Source: Blastococcus colisei (GTDB lineage Bacteria > Actinomycetota > Actinomycetes > Mycobacteriales > Geodermatophilaceae). Taken from it: DNA of 64,000 bases. Below the pieces are notes generated by a model, which was not told the DNA's origin, made no database searches, and saw nothing but the letters and a program-made list of their open reading frames with translations. A program made the position numbers and the translations under genes. The stretch covers positions 496,001 through 560,000 of the forward strand of contig NZ_VFQE01000002.1 of NCBI RefSeq assembly GCF_006717095.1. Reading direction: 5' to 3'. Of the stretch, positions 21,481 through 27,216 are shown one piece after another (the stretch's first letter is position 1; each line of letters opens with the position of its first letter).

Positions 21481-22565
21481 GCACCGACCCGAACCCGTTC
21501 GCCGGCACCCTGCTGGGAAGCACCATCGACGCCGTGATGCCCCGGGACGCCGCGGCCGAGCAGGCCGCCCGGGAGCGGCTGGACCGGATGACCAAGCCGC
21601 CGGGCTCCCTCGGCGTGCTCGAGGACGTCGCCGCGCAGCTGGCCGGCATCGCCGGCAGCTGCCCCGCTCCGCTGCCGGTCCCCGCGGTCGTCGCCGTCTT
21701 CGCCGGGGACCACGGGGTGCACGCCCAAGGGGTCACACCCTGGCCGCAGGAGGTGACCGCCCAGATGGTGGCCAACTTCCTGGCCGGCGGCGCGGTGGTC
21801 AACGCCTTCGCCGCCGAGCTGGGTGCCGAGGTGGTGGTGGTGGACGTCGGTGTGGTCGCGCCCCTGGATGCCGCGGACGGGCTGCTGGACCGGAAGATCC
21901 GCTCCGGCACGGCCGACCTCGCCGAGGGCCCGGCCATGACGCTCGACGAGGCCCGCCGGGCGGTGGAGGCCGGCATCGAGGTGGCCACCCGGCTGGCCAC
22001 CGCCTCGCCCTGCCTGATCACCGGCGACATGGGGATCGCCAACACCACGGCGTCCGCCGCGCTGGTGTGCGCCTTCACCGGCGCCTCCCCCGTCGCCGCG
22101 ACCGGGCGGGGAACCGGCGTGGACGACGCCACGCTGGCCCGCAAGGTGGATGTCGTCAGCCGCGCCGTCGGCCGGGTGCCGTCCCGGCCCGCGACGCCGG
22201 CCGCGGCGCTGGCCGTCCTGGCCGAGGTGGGCGGGCTCGAGCACGCGGCACTGGCCGGGTTCGTCCTCGGCGCCGCGGCCGCGCGCGTGCCGGTGCTGCT
22301 GGACGGCGCGATCGCCGGGTCCGCCGCACTGGTGGCCGCCGCACTGTGCCCCACCGCCGTGGAGTACGCGCTCGCCGGGCACGCGTCCGTCGAACCCGGG
22401 CACGCCATCGCCCTGGAGTCGCTGGGCCTGCGCCCGCTGCTCCGCCTCGACCTCCGGCTCGGCGAGGGCACCGGCGCCCTCCTGGCCCTGCCGCTGGTGG
22501 CGAGTGCAGCCCGGGCGCTCCGCGACGTCGCCACGTTCGACGCCGCCGGCGTGACCCAGAAATGA
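21477..22565 (+). CDS. cobT: Nicotinate-nucleotide--dimethylbenzimidazole phosphoribosyltransferase
   Basis: Makes alpha-ribazole-5'-phosphate from nicotinate mononucleotide and dimethylbenzimidazole. Motifs include RLDRMTKPPGSLGVLED, FAGDHGVHAQGVTPWP, the ITGDMGIANTTASAAL block, and the glutamate in HASVEPGHAIALESLGL. The usual product is about 350 residues. Family-like sequence (FAGTLLGSTIDAVMPRD) extends upstream of the first GTG (21534) and ATG (21537) to a CTG at 21477, which overlaps the cobC stop (CTGA) and has GAGGAG at 21466-21471 with 5-base spacing. That supports a CTG start and 362 residues. The stop overlaps cysG by four bases. Confidence 0.9.
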   Translation: MSTDPNPFAGTLLGSTIDAVMPRDAAAEQAARERLDRMTKPPGSLGVLEDVAAQLAGIAGSCPAPLPVPAVVAVFAGDHGVHAQGVTPWPQEVTAQMVANFLAGGAVVNAFAAELGAEVVVVDVGVVAPLDAADGLLDRKIRSGTADLAEGPAMTLDEARRAVEAGIEVATRLATASPCLITGDMGIANTTASAALVCAFTGASPVAATGRGTGVDDATLARKVDVVSRAVGRVPSRPATPAAALAVLAEVGGLEHAALAGFVLGAAAARVPVLLDGAIAGSAALVAAALCPTAVEYALAGHASVEPGHAIALESLGLRPLLRLDLRLGEGTGALLALPLVASAARALRDVATFDAAGVTQK

Positions 22566-23845
22566 ACGCCACCCCCGTCCCCCCCGAGAGCGGGGTCGTC
22601 TACCCCGTCGGGCTGCGGCTGCACGACCGCTCCGTCGTGGTGGTGGGCGGGGGGCAGGTGGCCCACCGGCGGGTGGCCGGCCTGCTGGCGGCGCGCGCCC
22701 GGGTCACCGTGGTCTCCCCGGCGGTCACCCCGGCACTGGAGGCCCTGGTCGAGCCGGGGTCGCTGACCTGGATACGACGCCGGTACGCGACCGGCGACCT
22801 CGACGGCGCCTGGTACGCGGTGGCCGCCACCGACGACCCCGCGGTGAACGCTGCCGTGGCCGAGGAGGCCGAACGCGCCCGGATCTTCTGCGCGCGCGCC
22901 GACGACCGGTCGGCCTCCAGCGTCTGGACCCCCGCCGTGGGTCGGCACGGCGAACTGGTCGTCGGTGTGCACGGGGGCGGGGATCCGCAGCGGGCGATCG
23001 GCGTGCGGGACGCCGTCGTCGCCGGGCTCACCGACGGCAGCATCGCCGACCGCGCCGCCCGCACACCCACGGTGGCCCGCCCGGGCAGCGTCGTCCTGGT
23101 CGGCGGCGGGCCCGGGGACCCCGGGCTGATCACCGTCCGCGGCCGGCAGGCGGTCGCCCAGGCCGACGTCGTCGTGGCCGATCACCTGGCACCGCTGACC
23201 CTGCTGGAGACCCTGCCTCCGCACGTGGAGGTCGTCGACGCCGCCAAGCTGCCCCGCGGGCGGTCGATGGCCCAGGAGCAGATCAACGCCCTGCTGGTCG
23301 AGCGCGCCCTCGCCGGGAAGCGCGTGGTGCGACTCAAGGGCGGGGACCCGTTCGTGTTCGGCCGCGGGATGGAGGAGCTCGAGGCCTGCACGGCGGCCGG
23401 CGTCCCGGTGGAGGTCGTGCCCGGCGTCACCAGCGCCATCGCCGTCCCGGGGCTGGCCGGGATCCCGGTCACCCACCGCGGGCTCACCCACGAGTTCGTC
23501 GTGGTGTCCGGGCACCTGCCGCCCGGGCATCCGAAGTCGCTCGTCGACTGGGCGGCGATCGCGCGGCTGCGCGGCACCGTCGTCGTCCTCATGGGCGTGG
23601 ACACCGCGCCGGCCATCGCCGCCGCGCTCGTGGAGCACGGGCGGGCACCGGACACCCCGGTCGCGGTGGTCAGCGACGGCTCCACGCCGTCCCAGCGCAC
23701 CCTCCGGACCACGCTCGCGGCGCTCCCGCGCACGGTGACCGAGGAGAACGTCCGCCCGCCCGCCGTCTGGGTGGTCGGCGCGGTGGTCGGGCTCGACGGA
23801 CCCCATGACGACCCGCCGCCGGACGACGACGCCGATCTGGACTGA
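22562..23845 (+). CDS. cysG: Siroheme synthase fusion: Met8-like dehydrogenase/ferrochelatase plus uroporphyrinogen-III C-methyltransferase
   Basis: A 427-residue bifunctional cytoplasmic enzyme. Residues about 10-165 are a Rossmann NAD-binding precorrin-2 dehydrogenase domain (VVVVGGGQVAHRRVAGLLAA, then AATDDPAVNAAV). Residues about 175-410 are a SAM-dependent methyltransferase (VVLVGGGPGDPGLITVRG, VVVADHLAP, VVRLKGGDPFVFGRG, VEVVPGVTSAIAVPGLAGIP, VVLMGVDT). It makes precorrin-2 and siroheme from uroporphyrinogen III, feeding both B12 and sulfite/nitrite reductases. The ATG overlaps the cobT stop by four bases. The C-terminal tail DDPPPDDDADLD is acidic and dispensable. Confidence 0.93.
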   Translation: MNATPVPPESGVVYPVGLRLHDRSVVVVGGGQVAHRRVAGLLAARARVTVVSPAVTPALEALVEPGSLTWIRRRYATGDLDGAWYAVAATDDPAVNAAVAEEAERARIFCARADDRSASSVWTPAVGRHGELVVGVHGGGDPQRAIGVRDAVVAGLTDGSIADRAARTPTVARPGSVVLVGGGPGDPGLITVRGRQAVAQADVVVADHLAPLTLLETLPPHVEVVDAAKLPRGRSMAQEQINALLVERALAGKRVVRLKGGDPFVFGRGMEELEACTAAGVPVEVVPGVTSAIAVPGLAGIPVTHRGLTHEFVVVSGHLPPGHPKSLVDWAAIARLRGTVVVLMGVDTAPAIAAALVEHGRAPDTPVAVVSDGSTPSQRTLRTTLAALPRTVTEENVRPPAVWVVGAVVGLDGPHDDPPPDDDADLD

Positions 23846-24141: not shown

Positions 24142-24401
24142 GTACGGACCGCTCCGGCGACGCCGTCTACAACCGGATCGCGCTGCTCCGGGCTGCGCAG
24201 GGGGTGACCCGGCGGCAGCTCGCTGACGCCCTCGGCGTCCACTACCAGACCGTCGGTCTACCTGGAGCGGTACGAGTACAACCCGGGCCTGCGCCTCGCG
24301 CTGCGGACGCCGGCTTCTTCGGGCTGCCCGTGGAGACGATCTTCTCGACGGATCCCTTCCTGCGGATCCGCGACCTGCCGCGCGCCGCGGACCCGGACTA
24401 G
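24138..24401 (+). pseudogene. XRE-type regulator with two compensating frameshifts
   Basis: The open frame gives 87 residues: a good N-terminal helix-turn-helix (RIALLRAAQGVTRRQLADAL, then GVHYQTV), a middle stretch with no protein logic (LPGAVRVQPGPAPRA), and a good C-terminus (AGFFGLPVETIFSTDPF). The middle, read one base later, becomes YLERYEYNPGLRLALR, which is exactly what follows the helix-turn-helix in small XRE regulators. So one base was gained near 24254-24258 and one lost near 24303-24312. The gene stays open but about 18 residues, including the end of the DNA-binding domain, are garbled. It is probably inactive. Sequencing error is the alternative. Confidence 0.8.
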
Positions 24402-24435
24402 GGCCAGCGGTCGAGCCGCACCGCCTGAGGAGGAC

Positions 24436-24649
24436 GTGCACAACGACCACCGGAAGACCCTCGAGCACGACGACGAGGACCTCGCCCTGTCCTTCATGGA
24501 CAGGACGGACGTGGAGCTCCCGTTCTCCCCCGACGCCGCCCTCGAGGTCGACGGCCGGAGCTGCACCGTCCGGCGGGTGTCGTTCTCGGCACACGACGCG
24601 GCCGCCGCCGTCGCCCTGCTCCGCGAACGGGTGGCGAGTGCGCGGGTGT
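24436..24649 (+). other. Possible 5' remnant of a gene cut by the HNH element
   Basis: From GTG at 24436, two bases after AGGAGG, the frame reads an acidic, protein-like stretch (HRKTLEHDDEDLALSFMDRT, LPFSPDAALEVDGRS, AAVALLRERVASARVW) up to the left 19-bp palindrome at 24650. The frame then stays open into the HNH gene, but no HNH/DUF222 protein starts like this, and a much better start with its own AGGAGG lies at 24751. The stretch may be the start of a resident gene whose remainder was lost or displaced. No family is recognised. The 350 bases 24402-24750 hold nothing else. Confidence 0.35.
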
Positions 24650-24668
24650 GGCGTTCCCGCGGGAACGT
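24650..24668. repeat. Left 19-bp palindromic repeat of the HNH unit
   Basis: GGCGTTCCCGCGGGAACGT, with the perfect 16-bp palindrome CGTTCCCGCGGGAACG at 24652-24667. Identical to the copy at 26332-26350, in the same orientation. Confidence 0.85.
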
Positions 24669-24750
24669 CCCGCCGACGGCCGTGCCTCTGACGTGCAGTT
24701 TCTGTCGGTGGCCGCCGCTATTCTTCGAACACGCATTCGAAGGAGGTCCC

Positions 24751-26352
24751 GTGCCCGATCACCCGACTGCCCAGCACCGGCCCGGCGGTCCACTGCCCGA
24801 ACTGGCGGCCGCCATCACTGCCGGAGCGGTCCGCCTCGCCGCCGCGACCGCGGCGTGGCTCCGTCTGATCGCCGAATTCGACGAGCGGGACGGTTGGCAC
24901 GGCTACGGCATCGCGTCGTGCGCGCACTGGCTGTCGTGGCAGTGCGGGCTCTCCCCGGGGGCGGCCCGCGAGCACGTGCGGGTCGCACGAGCGCTGACAT
25001 CGCTGCCGTTGATCGAGGCGGCGTTCGCGGCGGGTCGGCTGTCCTACTCGAAGGTGCGTGCGCTCACCCGGATCGCCGAGCCGGATAGCGAGGCAGCGCT
25101 GCTGGAGCTGGCCGTGGAGCTCACGGCCTCGCAGGTCGAGCGGACGGTCCGCCAGTGGCGCCGAGCGGACATCCTGAACGCCGGCGACCCGCCGCCGGAG
25201 GCGCGGCCGTCGTTCGACCACTGGTGGGACGAGTCAGGCATGTTGACGGTGAAGATCCGCATGGCCCCCGAGGAGGGCACCGGTTTCATGGCGGCGATCG
25301 ACTCGGTGGCCGAGCGCACCGCCCGTCGGGAACGCGCCGAGGCGACCCGGACCGCGGGGGCGCCGAGGGCCGCCGAGGCCCCACCTGCCGACGACGAGGA
25401 CGGTCCGGCGCCCGGCCGCCTCGCCGCCCGCCGGCTGGCAGCGCTGTCGGTCCTGGCGGAGGCCGCCGCGGACATCGGCCGCCGCGCGGGTGATCCGCCG
25501 CGCCGTGAGGTGGTGGTGCACGTCGACGCCGCCGTCCTGGCCGACGACGCCGCGGCCGGACGCGCCTACGTCGAGGGCGGCCCGGCGCTGACCCCGTCCG
25601 TCGTCCGCCGGATGCTCTGCGAGGCCTCGGTGGTCGGCATGATCGAGAGGGACCGCGAGCCCCTCGCCGTGGGCCGCCGGAAGCGGCGCGCCACCCGGGC
25701 ACAGCGCACGGCACTGCTCCGCCGGGACGGCGGCTGCGCGCGTCCGGGCTGCCTGGAGTCCCGGGTCGAACGACTGCACGCCCATCACCTGCGGCACTGG
25801 CTCTTCGGTGGGCGGACGGACCTGTCGAACCTCGTGCTGCTGTGCGACCGCGACCACGGACTCGTGCACGAACTCGACCTGGTGATGAGCCGCGCCGACG
25901 GACGCCTCGTCGTCACAGCTCCGGACGGCCGTCGGGTGTGGGGAGTGGCGGACGCGGCCTTCACCGGAGGTCTCCCAGGGCTCTCCGACACATCGCCCGC
26001 CCGGGACGAGTGGGCCGGGGTGCATCCAGTTGACCTGCAGATGGAACGGCGCCCGAGCGCAGCGGATCCGGTCGCGACCGCAGCGTCCCGGCCGGTCCGT
26101 GCTCGCCCCGGGTCGCGGCGGCCGGGCAGACGCCGCGACCGGCACAACGCCAGCAAGCGGTTGCGGCCCACCTGCCCGGCCGTCCCCATCGGAGCCACGC
26201 TCTTCCCCGACGGAGAGCCGCCGCTTCCCGACGCCATGCCGACCGGCGGAGAGCGCATGGACGTCCGCTACGTCGTCGGGGTGCTCATGGGCAACCGCGA
26301 TCTGGTCCGCCGCCTGGAGACCGAGGCCACCGGCGTTCCCGCGGGAACGTAG
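24751..26352 (+). CDS. HNH endonuclease domain protein, DUF222/13E12 repeat family
   Basis: A 533-residue protein. Residues about 20-330 are the helical DUF222 region (ASCAHWLSWQCGLSPGAARE, HVRVARALTSLP, LSYSKVRALTRIAEPDSEA). Residues about 322-370 form the HNH nuclease finger: RRDGGCARPGC, then RLHAHHLRHW, then TDLSNLVLLCDRDHGLVHE, with paired cysteines and the HH/N residues intact. The C-terminal 100 residues are low-complexity and basic. GTG at 24751 with AGGAGG at 24741-24746 is preferred over the open upstream frame. DNA nicking or homing activity is expected from the fold; no target is known. It is flanked by 19-bp repeats. Confidence 0.9.
   Translation: MPDHPTAQHRPGGPLPELAAAITAGAVRLAAATAAWLRLIAEFDERDGWHGYGIASCAHWLSWQCGLSPGAAREHVRVARALTSLPLIEAAFAAGRLSYSKVRALTRIAEPDSEAALLELAVELTASQVERTVRQWRRADILNAGDPPPEARPSFDHWWDESGMLTVKIRMAPEEGTGFMAAIDSVAERTARRERAEATRTAGAPRAAEAPPADDEDGPAPGRLAARRLAALSVLAEAAADIGRRAGDPPRREVVVHVDAAVLADDAAAGRAYVEGGPALTPSVVRRMLCEASVVGMIERDREPLAVGRRKRRATRAQRTALLRRDGGCARPGCLESRVERLHAHHLRHWLFGGRTDLSNLVLLCDRDHGLVHELDLVMSRADGRLVVTAPDGRRVWGVADAAFTGGLPGLSDTSPARDEWAGVHPVDLQMERRPSAADPVATAASRPVRARPGSRRPGRRRDRHNASKRLRPTCPAVPIGATLFPDGEPPLPDAMPTGGERMDVRYVVGVLMGNRDLVRRLETEATGVPAGT
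26332..26350. repeat. Right 19-bp palindromic repeat of the HNH unit
   Basis: Exact copy of 24650-24668. It encodes the last residues of the HNH protein (GVPAGT) and its final base is the first base of the stop codon. It also sits 14 bases beyond the convergent DODA stop, so the hairpin could double as a terminator. Confidence 0.85.
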
Positions 26353-26364
26353 AGAGCCGGGCGA

Positions 26365-27216
26365 TCAGATGTTGGCTCCGTCGGCCGGCGGGCCCTCGGG
26401 CAGGGGCGCGGCGAAGCCCGACCCGGACACCGCGGGCGCATCCATGCCGACCGTGTACGCCGTCATCGAGAGGGATCCATAGCTGTAGCCGTCCACGAGC
26501 ACCTCTGCCGGCGTCCCCGTCGCCCCGGCCACGCCGGCGACGTAGAGCAGGGGCAGGAAATGGTCCGGGGTCGGCACGGCCAGGTCGTAGTCGCGGTGAC
26601 CGTCGAGCCGGCCGACCTCGGTGGGATCGGTGAGCATCAGCTGCTTGGCCTCCTGGTCGAACCGCTGCGCCCAGTCGAACCCCGCGTCGGGCAGCGCGCG
26701 ACTCACCCCGCCCAGGTTGTGCACCACGTTGCCGCTCCCGATCACCAGGACGCCGTCCTCCCGCAACGGGGCGAGCGCGGCGCCCAGTTGCAGGTGGTAG
26801 TCGAAGGACTTGAGCGCATTGATCGACAACTGGACGACGGGGATGTCGGCGTCGGGGAAGGCGTGCAGAAGCACCGACCAGGCCCCGTGGTCGATCCCCC
26901 AGCTGTCGAGGTCGGCGCCGACCCACGTCGGATGCACCACGTCAGCGACCTCCTCGTACAGCTCGGGCAGGCCTGGCGGCTGGTAGTCGACCTCGAAGAG
27001 CTCGCGCGGGAAGCCGAAGAAGTCGTGGATGGTGCGCGGTCGCGGCATGGCGGTGACCGCGGTGGCCTGCACGTACCAGTGGGCGGAGACGACGAGGATC
27101 GCCCGGGGACGCGGCACGGCCTGGCCGAACGCCCGCCAGGCCTCGGTGTACCGGTTCTTCTCGAGCGCGTTCATCGGGTTGCCATGACCGAAGAACGCGG
27201 CGGGCATGACGGGCAT
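26365..27216 (-). CDS. ygiD: 4,5-DOPA dioxygenase extradiol-like protein (LigB type)
   Basis: A 283-residue cytoplasmic extradiol ring-cleavage-type enzyme. Conserved pieces are [15 protein letters not shown] at the N-terminus, [15 protein letters not shown] near residue 40 (metal-binding His), [21 protein letters not shown] near residue 110, [13 protein letters not shown] near residue 155 and [13 protein letters not shown] near residue 215. This matches YgiD-type enzymes that can cleave L-DOPA in vitro; the physiological substrate is unknown. It is convergent with the HNH gene. Confidence 0.9.

Follow-up and report, generated by a model that had tools for sequence, protein, structure and literature searches.

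Within a 64,000-nucleotide stretch of the Blastococcus colisei genome (hereafter the window), one gene encoding a DUF222-HNH protein is enclosed by two copies of a palindrome which, among related genomes of soil and rock actinobacteria, stands beside genes of one DUF222-HNH subfamily, changes with the nuclease lineage and also occurs as dispersed gene-less copies. Judging from sequence comparison, we consider it probable that an SOS-controlled, palindrome-recognising nuclease and its dispersed palindromic repeats form an HNH analogue of the REP/RAYT systems, a partnership which fits the observations better than a simple homing gene.

The palindrome pair and its DUF222-HNH gene

The sequence-only reading had described an identical 19-bp repeat at both borders of the gene, and the window does contain exactly two copies of the 19-mer GGCGTTCCCGCGGGAACGT, which lie at 24650-24668 and 26332-26350 in the same orientation and with a spacing of 1682 bp. 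When up to three mismatches were allowed, four strand-wise matches were obtained in the window, all at these same two places, compared to a mean of 0.13 matches in 100 shuffles of the window. The perfectly palindromic part is the 16-mer CGTTCCCGCGGGAACG (24652-24667 and 26334-26349), which lies at both ends of the gene within a left (GGCGTTCCCGCGGGAACGTC, 24650..24669, TTC type) and a right palindrome (GGCGTTCCCGCGGGAACGTA, 26332..26351). The end of the right palindrome overlaps the stop codon, its 19-bp copy finishing on the T of TAG (26350-26352). The DUF222-HNH gene itself (24751..26352, plus strand, GTG start, TAG stop) encodes 533 amino acids and nearly fills the 1.7-kb unit, and the palindromes enclose a single HNH gene.

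Genome-wide, the 14-bp core of the palindrome has 10 copies in 5.16 Mb, whereas its reversed control has 0, and 0.05-0.09 copies per genome are predicted by Markov models (order 1-5) for which about 258 kb of the same genome served as training sequence. Two of these copies are the pair at the gene, three belong to near-identical copies (99.5-99.7%) of a single insertion sequence, and one falls within a 60-bp stretch that is 90% alike to part of this insertion sequence. A chance repeat, already judged improbable in the earlier reading, can be rejected, as window shuffles, reversed control and Markov expectation all fall far below the observed numbers.

Pfam assigned residues 31-326 of the window protein to DUF222 (80.1 bits) and residues 329-373 to HNH (30.9 bits), both above cut-off; these were the only Pfam domains, with no transposase domain in the gene, and the unit ends are the palindromes. 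Both domains recur among 47 aligned members (47 and 46, respectively, at E <= 0.01), in which H345, H346 and H369 are invariant and N360 is nearly so. Searches with the protein returned only 7 weak heparanase matches among solved structures (E about 0.5), one resemblance of the HNH region far below cut-off in NCBIfam, six HNH endonuclease families in PHROGs, through the HNH part alone, and no match among the PADLOC defence models at E <= 0.1. DUF222 is listed as a domain of unknown function, and DUF222/13E12 genes can be abundant in actinobacteria. As anticipated, the family is multicopy here, with 18 matches in the genome, among which the window gene alone matches the window protein at E <= 1e-50; the nearest orthologues are found in Blastococcus, Geodermatophilus and Modestobacter.

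Directly before the start codon lies a LexA/SOS-box-like site (CGAACACGCATTCG, 24726..24739, plus strand), which has one mismatch to the LexA box consensus CGAACN4GTTCG. With no more than two mismatches allowed, 31 of 33 relatives have such a box at the start or a little ahead of it, compared to 148 of 897 control windows; it was found at no more than one mismatch in 27 of the 33 and was perfect in 10. In M. tuberculosis, five putative HNH endonucleases are named among RecA-dependent damage genes in the available text of PMC8151990. The nuclease gene of the window is probably under SOS (DNA-damage) control. The five damage-responsive HNH endonucleases of M. tuberculosis are presumably 13E12 proteins.

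Linkage and palindrome type across the subfamily

The association of palindrome and gene was followed in a genome set with one genome per species, of which 112 Geodermatophilaceae genomes were scanned for palindrome types. Among 30 loci chosen by protein similarity, the window gene included (match ±1.5 kb), a palindrome copy with at most two mismatches was present in 29, with runs of eight in two of them; the exception (L179) has the CTT variant CGCTTCCGCGGAAGCG, in five exact copies and two near ones. A second set was formed by the window and 29 loci at >46% identity, leaving out more distant loci as well as L047 and L053, which are without a single ORF, and discounting two chance hits with other outer bases (L052 and L071). 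In these 30 loci, an upstream copy within 600 bp was found in 25, a copy at or after the stop in 13 and copies on both sides in 12; five orthologues, one of them at a contig edge, had no upstream copy. Ten further Modestobacter genes of this set combine an upstream copy with a second one towards the 3' end of the ORF; this second copy is exact in 3 of the genes, and the other 7 show one or two changes in it.

Similar results were obtained de novo: of 63 loci, 10 had recurrent perfect palindromes of at least 14 bp, every one of them belonging to the 29 nearest, compared to 0 of 248 control window pairs. With other settings, the 30 family loci yielded 15 (strict) or 24 (loose) positives against a background of 0 or 1 of 77. 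The nine g12 genomes which contain the gene and have a complete site list hold 60 palindromes together, 16 of which, counted by hand, lie <1 kb from the gene, where about 0.05 would be expected by arithmetic.

The 17 other DUF222 genes of the genome displayed no recurring palindrome pair and only scattered CCGCGG hits in different surrounding sequence, and 35 more distant DUF222 loci, mostly mycobacterial, yielded recurrent palindromes at 0 (strict) or 1 (loose). A general property of all DUF222 genes is rejected on these two grounds. The genome search proposed with the sequence-only reading identifies a rare palindrome strongly linked to one subfamily. As a mark of gene borders, it does stand beside most Geodermatophilaceae orthologues at several genomic places, but it is not confined to gene borders.

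Several individual arrangements were recorded in the course of this survey. Eight asymmetric copies, CGTCTCCGCGGGAACG, follow each other at 26-bp steps upstream of one gene (L222 4638-4835), and eight copies, six of them exact, extend across about 600 bp upstream of another (L223 6245-6870). The genes of B. tunisiensis (L064, about 6027) and G012 (L210, about 6071) are split by a frame change, and the split genes keep their palindromes, four upstream (two exact) and one downstream.

The variant palindromes share the CCGCGG core and keep their symmetry, both arms changing together. Modestobacter orthologues (genus g7, identified by identical proteins) carry the GTT type CGGTTCCGCGGAACCG, exact copies of which occur in 18 of the 112 family genomes, all within the 23 of this genus, and one Klenkia orthologue has a single upstream CGTCTCCGCGGAGACG. 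The CTT type was found in 4 of the 112 genomes, at the gene in three congeners (5 of 6 copies in G002, 2 of 6 in G010 and 4 of 7 in G015) and as a single copy away from the gene in G101. No common-type copy is present in G010, where CTT copies flank the gene on both sides.

Paralogues within one genome behave in the same manner. Eighteen Modestobacter loci of two paralogues comprise nine with only GTT or close types and nine with only the TTC type, one of the GTT-type loci also having an unrelated CCGCGG hit, and in the 7 genomes which hold both paralogues, each is accompanied by its own palindrome type or close variants only. On a nuclease tree of 83 rows, a count which leaves out 10 rows without a perfect palindrome and in which one state is a tie at L297, the palindrome type has 6 states and undergoes 5 changes, the smallest number possible. 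Since the types are paralogue-specific within one genome and change minimally on the tree, the palindrome tracks the protein and not the genome. The alignment columns which separate the types include residues 68, 70, 74 and 96, a correspondence which reflects one or two events in the phylogeny and is to be taken as a lead. Recognition of the palindrome by the nuclease, as initially proposed, gains strong indirect support from these compensatory changes by lineage and from the types proper to each paralogue, whereas cleavage is a predicted activity. Many subfamily members would each be paired with a cognate palindrome, which in the present case has the form CG-NNN-CCGCGG-N'N'N'-CG.

A palindrome was also observed in the middle of the ORF in 8 of 9 loci of Modestobacter paralogue B (L291, L292, L294, L296, L299, L303, L305 and L306).

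Empty, solo and filled loci, and gene-less copies

In the window, the unit lies between a siroheme/cobA-type gene (22562..23845, plus strand), the left neighbour of the locus in relatives, and a DODA-type dioxygenase gene (26365..27216, minus strand), which served to find empty sites; these and the following gene names were assigned by eye. Between cobA and the left palindrome are a decayed XRE-family gene (24153..24377, plus strand), an operon remnant which is whole or nearly so in G013 and G012, and the 3' remnant of a PH-like membrane protein gene (24433..24642, plus strand), which corresponds to residues 126-195 of the 197 of the G013 protein and stops 8 bp short of the left palindrome. 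The gene order in relatives is cobA, then ABC, permease, XRE and PH-like genes, partly or wholly, then DODA. The broken genes noticed on the left flank are real and are the decayed XRE/PH-like part of an operon present in relatives, where the remnants are longer.

Comparison of this region among relatives, a check suggested at the outset, revealed three states of one locus. The unit is absent in G013, G008 and G015; a single palindrome without the gene is present in G011, where it has one mismatch and separates the stops of the PH-like and DODA genes, and, between cobA and DODA, in G007 and G014; palindrome-gene-palindrome is found in G000, G006, G009 and G012, the gene being broken in the last. 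In addition, G095 and G085 carry the gene beside cobA in the opposite orientation, in G095 adjoining an XRE gene that is cut off at its start, and G017, from another branch of the tree, carries it beside cobA in the orientation of the window. These arrangements indicate that members of different lineages have settled in the region, facing either way, which would be possible if the target is symmetric. As for the solo palindromes, they may be landing sites or scars or may have been inserted independently.

Other synteny groups of the gene have other neighbours. The Modestobacter loci that were compared have it at one fixed place, which counts against movement. Among pairs at different places drawn from 33 chosen loci, upstream homology ended within 8 bp of the palindrome edge in both members in 42 of the 96 pairs with different left flanks; the remaining 54 had another end point, which more often fell in the interval separating palindrome from gene. 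A conserved operator would likewise produce homology that stops at the palindrome. The gene is not syntenic in all relatives, and the initial view of a mobile unit is supported by the different loci, the empty, solo and filled states and the two orientations. A closed minimal transposon is too narrow a description, as the palindrome is also a dispersed repeat, partly in gene-less hairpin doublets, with copies inside genes.

Gene-less copies were surveyed at 60 unlinked loci of other genomes and 8 loci of this genome. By eye, many lie inside genes, often in a VPAGT frame, and are conserved between species; because of this conservation, the dispersed coding copies look old rather than active. 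Judged by eye, ten genomes retain the exact palindrome at one and the same coding position, the translation of which is V-P-A-G-T or similar (L001, L232, L233, L239, L241, L243, L253, L270, L277 and L287).

Other gene-less copies are intergenic doublets, which can be 56 bp long. Doublets account for 20 rows in 88 loci (three being copies of one insertion sequence), 14 of them with exactly 40 bp between copies. Their 24-bp spacer commonly resembles GTCAAG-N8-CTTGAC; both TTC and GTT types occur, one GTT-type doublet sharing the same plan. Three doublets folded as single strands gave long hairpins (z -8.3 to -9.3), compared to a weak fold (z -1.6), with a possible 7-bp stem, for the single palindrome. 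One doublet of this genome (L147 4497-5057) sits with a block of about 500 bp between two genes; the same flanking genes are only 9 to 91 bp apart in four relatives, and the block matches another place in three relatives.

Per genome, the common type has 0-18 exact copies. Palindrome copies have a median of 4 in the 70 genomes with the subfamily versus 1 in the 42 without it (p 3e-5, ignoring relatedness). At least one palindrome is held by 26 of the 42 genomes without the subfamily, and 11 of the 70 genomes with it are without the common type, suggesting that the repeats can outlive or precede the gene.

The insertion sequence mentioned above is present in this genome as three near-identical (99.5-99.7%) 1.13-kb copies (L002 1421-2553, L005 and L006), with a 320-aa transposase-like ORF, terminal repeats of about 24 bp and a palindrome doublet near one end. 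A similar-looking insertion sequence end was seen by eye beside the palindrome at L285, in another species.

Proposed mechanism, alternative readings and known systems

These patterns are compatible with a model in which the nuclease, probably as a homodimer, binds the palindrome, as suggested by covariation which preserves symmetry and by the specificity of the paralogues. The intact HNH domain would then allow it to nick or cut the palindrome, or a hairpin formed by it. Palindromes next to the gene and elsewhere would be cut and repaired by copying, which would let the palindrome-gene-palindrome unit move into and out of loci whichever way round and would also disperse palindromes without the gene, as well as 56-bp doublets of them; spread by such cutting and repair is suggested by the doublets, solo sites and occupied loci. 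We infer binding, cleavage, movement and SOS induction alike from comparison of the sequences, and the upstream copy may have an operator role in addition.

Of the alternatives, one in which the palindromes are operators survives best, although we regard it as unlikely. The DUF222 protein or a co-evolving regulator would bind them and regulate the gene together with LexA, the dispersed copies would be other regulated sites, and nothing would be mobile. The upstream copy, often at about -60 to -170 and not far from the SOS box, is indeed the most constant feature (25 of 30), and covariation and paralogue specificity would suit any dimeric DNA-binding partner. Operators would, however, not lead one to expect copies at or after the stop and inside the ORF, arrays that reach 8 copies, doublets which occur at unrelated loci and form hairpins around a 24-bp spacer, copies within coding sequence, or solo copies where the gene is absent.

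The SOS boxes would equally suit a damage-induced nuclease for self-targeting or defence, which cuts the flanking palindromes to destroy or diversify its own locus, and the REP13E12 regions of M. tuberculosis are described as gene-conversion hot spots in the available text of PMC13061034. This reading is improbable, given that no PADLOC model matched and that the dispersed doublets and occupied or empty loci point to spread.

The near-identical insertion sequence copies with a palindrome doublet by one end, and the similar-looking end at L285, seen by eye, raise the thought that an insertion sequence transposase or phage integrase recognises the palindrome and moves the unit, with the DUF222 gene as passenger. 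We hold this to be quite improbable, as the palindrome type follows the DUF222 lineage and not the genome, and as the 1.7-kb unit is nearly filled by one gene. Ordinary hairpins, such as terminators, near the gene by accident are scarcely credible and are rejected on the sequence specificity of the palindrome types: several copies do lie between convergent genes, as here before DODA, and a 7-bp stem is possible, but the single palindrome folds weakly and such a role needs a hairpin, not one exact rare sequence (10 copies) that changes with nuclease lineage within one genome.

The favoured nuclease-repeat partnership resembles, but does not belong to, known systems. RAYTs are HUH/Y1 enzymes of the IS200/IS605 kind, and REPs are imperfect, tagged and of high copy number. 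Free-standing HNH homing endonuclease genes, in turn, usually destroy their own site when they insert and occupy a single cognate site. Like the latter, the subfamily would be a selfish nuclease gene found at some loci and missing at others, its recognition site lying where it inserts, whereas here full sites remain at either end and also occur dispersed.

As regards REP/REPIN and RAYT (TnpA_REP), the likeness lies in a low-copy nuclease gene flanked by short genome-dispersed palindromes, according to the available text of PMC3116915 and PMC8266576, in paired palindromes which form long, REPIN-like hairpins, and in a repeat type that follows enzyme lineage, the RAYT side of this comparison being partly from general knowledge. 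Both hallmarks, a nuclease flanked by dispersed short palindromes and a repeat type tracking the enzyme lineage, were found in the DUF222-HNH case. The differences are the DUF222-HNH protein, the SOS box, the symmetric CCGCGG-core palindromes and the small number of exact common-type copies (0-18 per genome). The Pfam search of the nuclease, which gave DUF222 and HNH-type domains only, detected no HUH/Y1 (IS200/IS605-type) domain, and the imperfect hairpin tagged with GTAG/CGTC, as given for REPs in the available text of PMC3733652, was not encountered here, the palindrome being symmetric and of different sequence. As its enzyme is of another class, the subfamily is not a member of REP/RAYT.

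The 13E12/REP13E12 genes of mycobacteria belong by name to the same DUF222-HNH protein family (available text of PMC10589994, PMC13061034 and PMC8151990). Flanking palindromes go unmentioned for them in the available parts of these sources (PMC10589994, PMC8151990), the string 'palindrom' occurring 0 times in that of PMC13061034. The REP13E12 gene-conversion hot spots described there (PMC13061034) would fit a nuclease which provokes copying. A nuclease-palindromic repeat partnership of this kind is apparently undescribed; no link between DUF222 and palindromic repeats was found in the titles and abstract openings of the literature searched, which was thin on subscription journals.

We give about even chances to the wider proposal that the subfamily is a second, independently evolved enzyme class maintaining and spreading palindromic repeats with a readable protein-DNA code, in which 3 bp on each side of the constant CCGCGG core would change with the protein and the type-separating residues 68, 70 and 74, in one N-terminal segment, and 96 would be candidate specificity residues. 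If true, part of the DUF222 family would acquire a concrete substrate, REP/RAYT-like repeat systems would have arisen more than once with different nuclease chemistry, natural specificity variants of a long-site palindrome-recognising HNH enzyme would be available, two per cell, and the SOS response would be tied to a repeat-spreading enzyme.

Beyond Geodermatophilaceae, a Ruania protein used as query against 394 genomes of the class matched in 25 genomes at 27 loci, 25 of which lie outside the family. Eighteen of these 25 relatives had no recurrent palindrome, and CCGCGG-core recurrent palindromes were found at 5 (strict) or 7 (loose) of the 25, compared to a background of 0 or 1 of 77. Upstream of the Ruania gene itself lies GGTGCTCCCGCGGGAGCATC, with a near copy on the downstream side. 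G038 and G053, of another family, carry the common-type palindrome at DUF222-HNH genes, partly inside the open frame, and a mid-ORF palindrome was likewise seen in relatives of another family (L125-L127).
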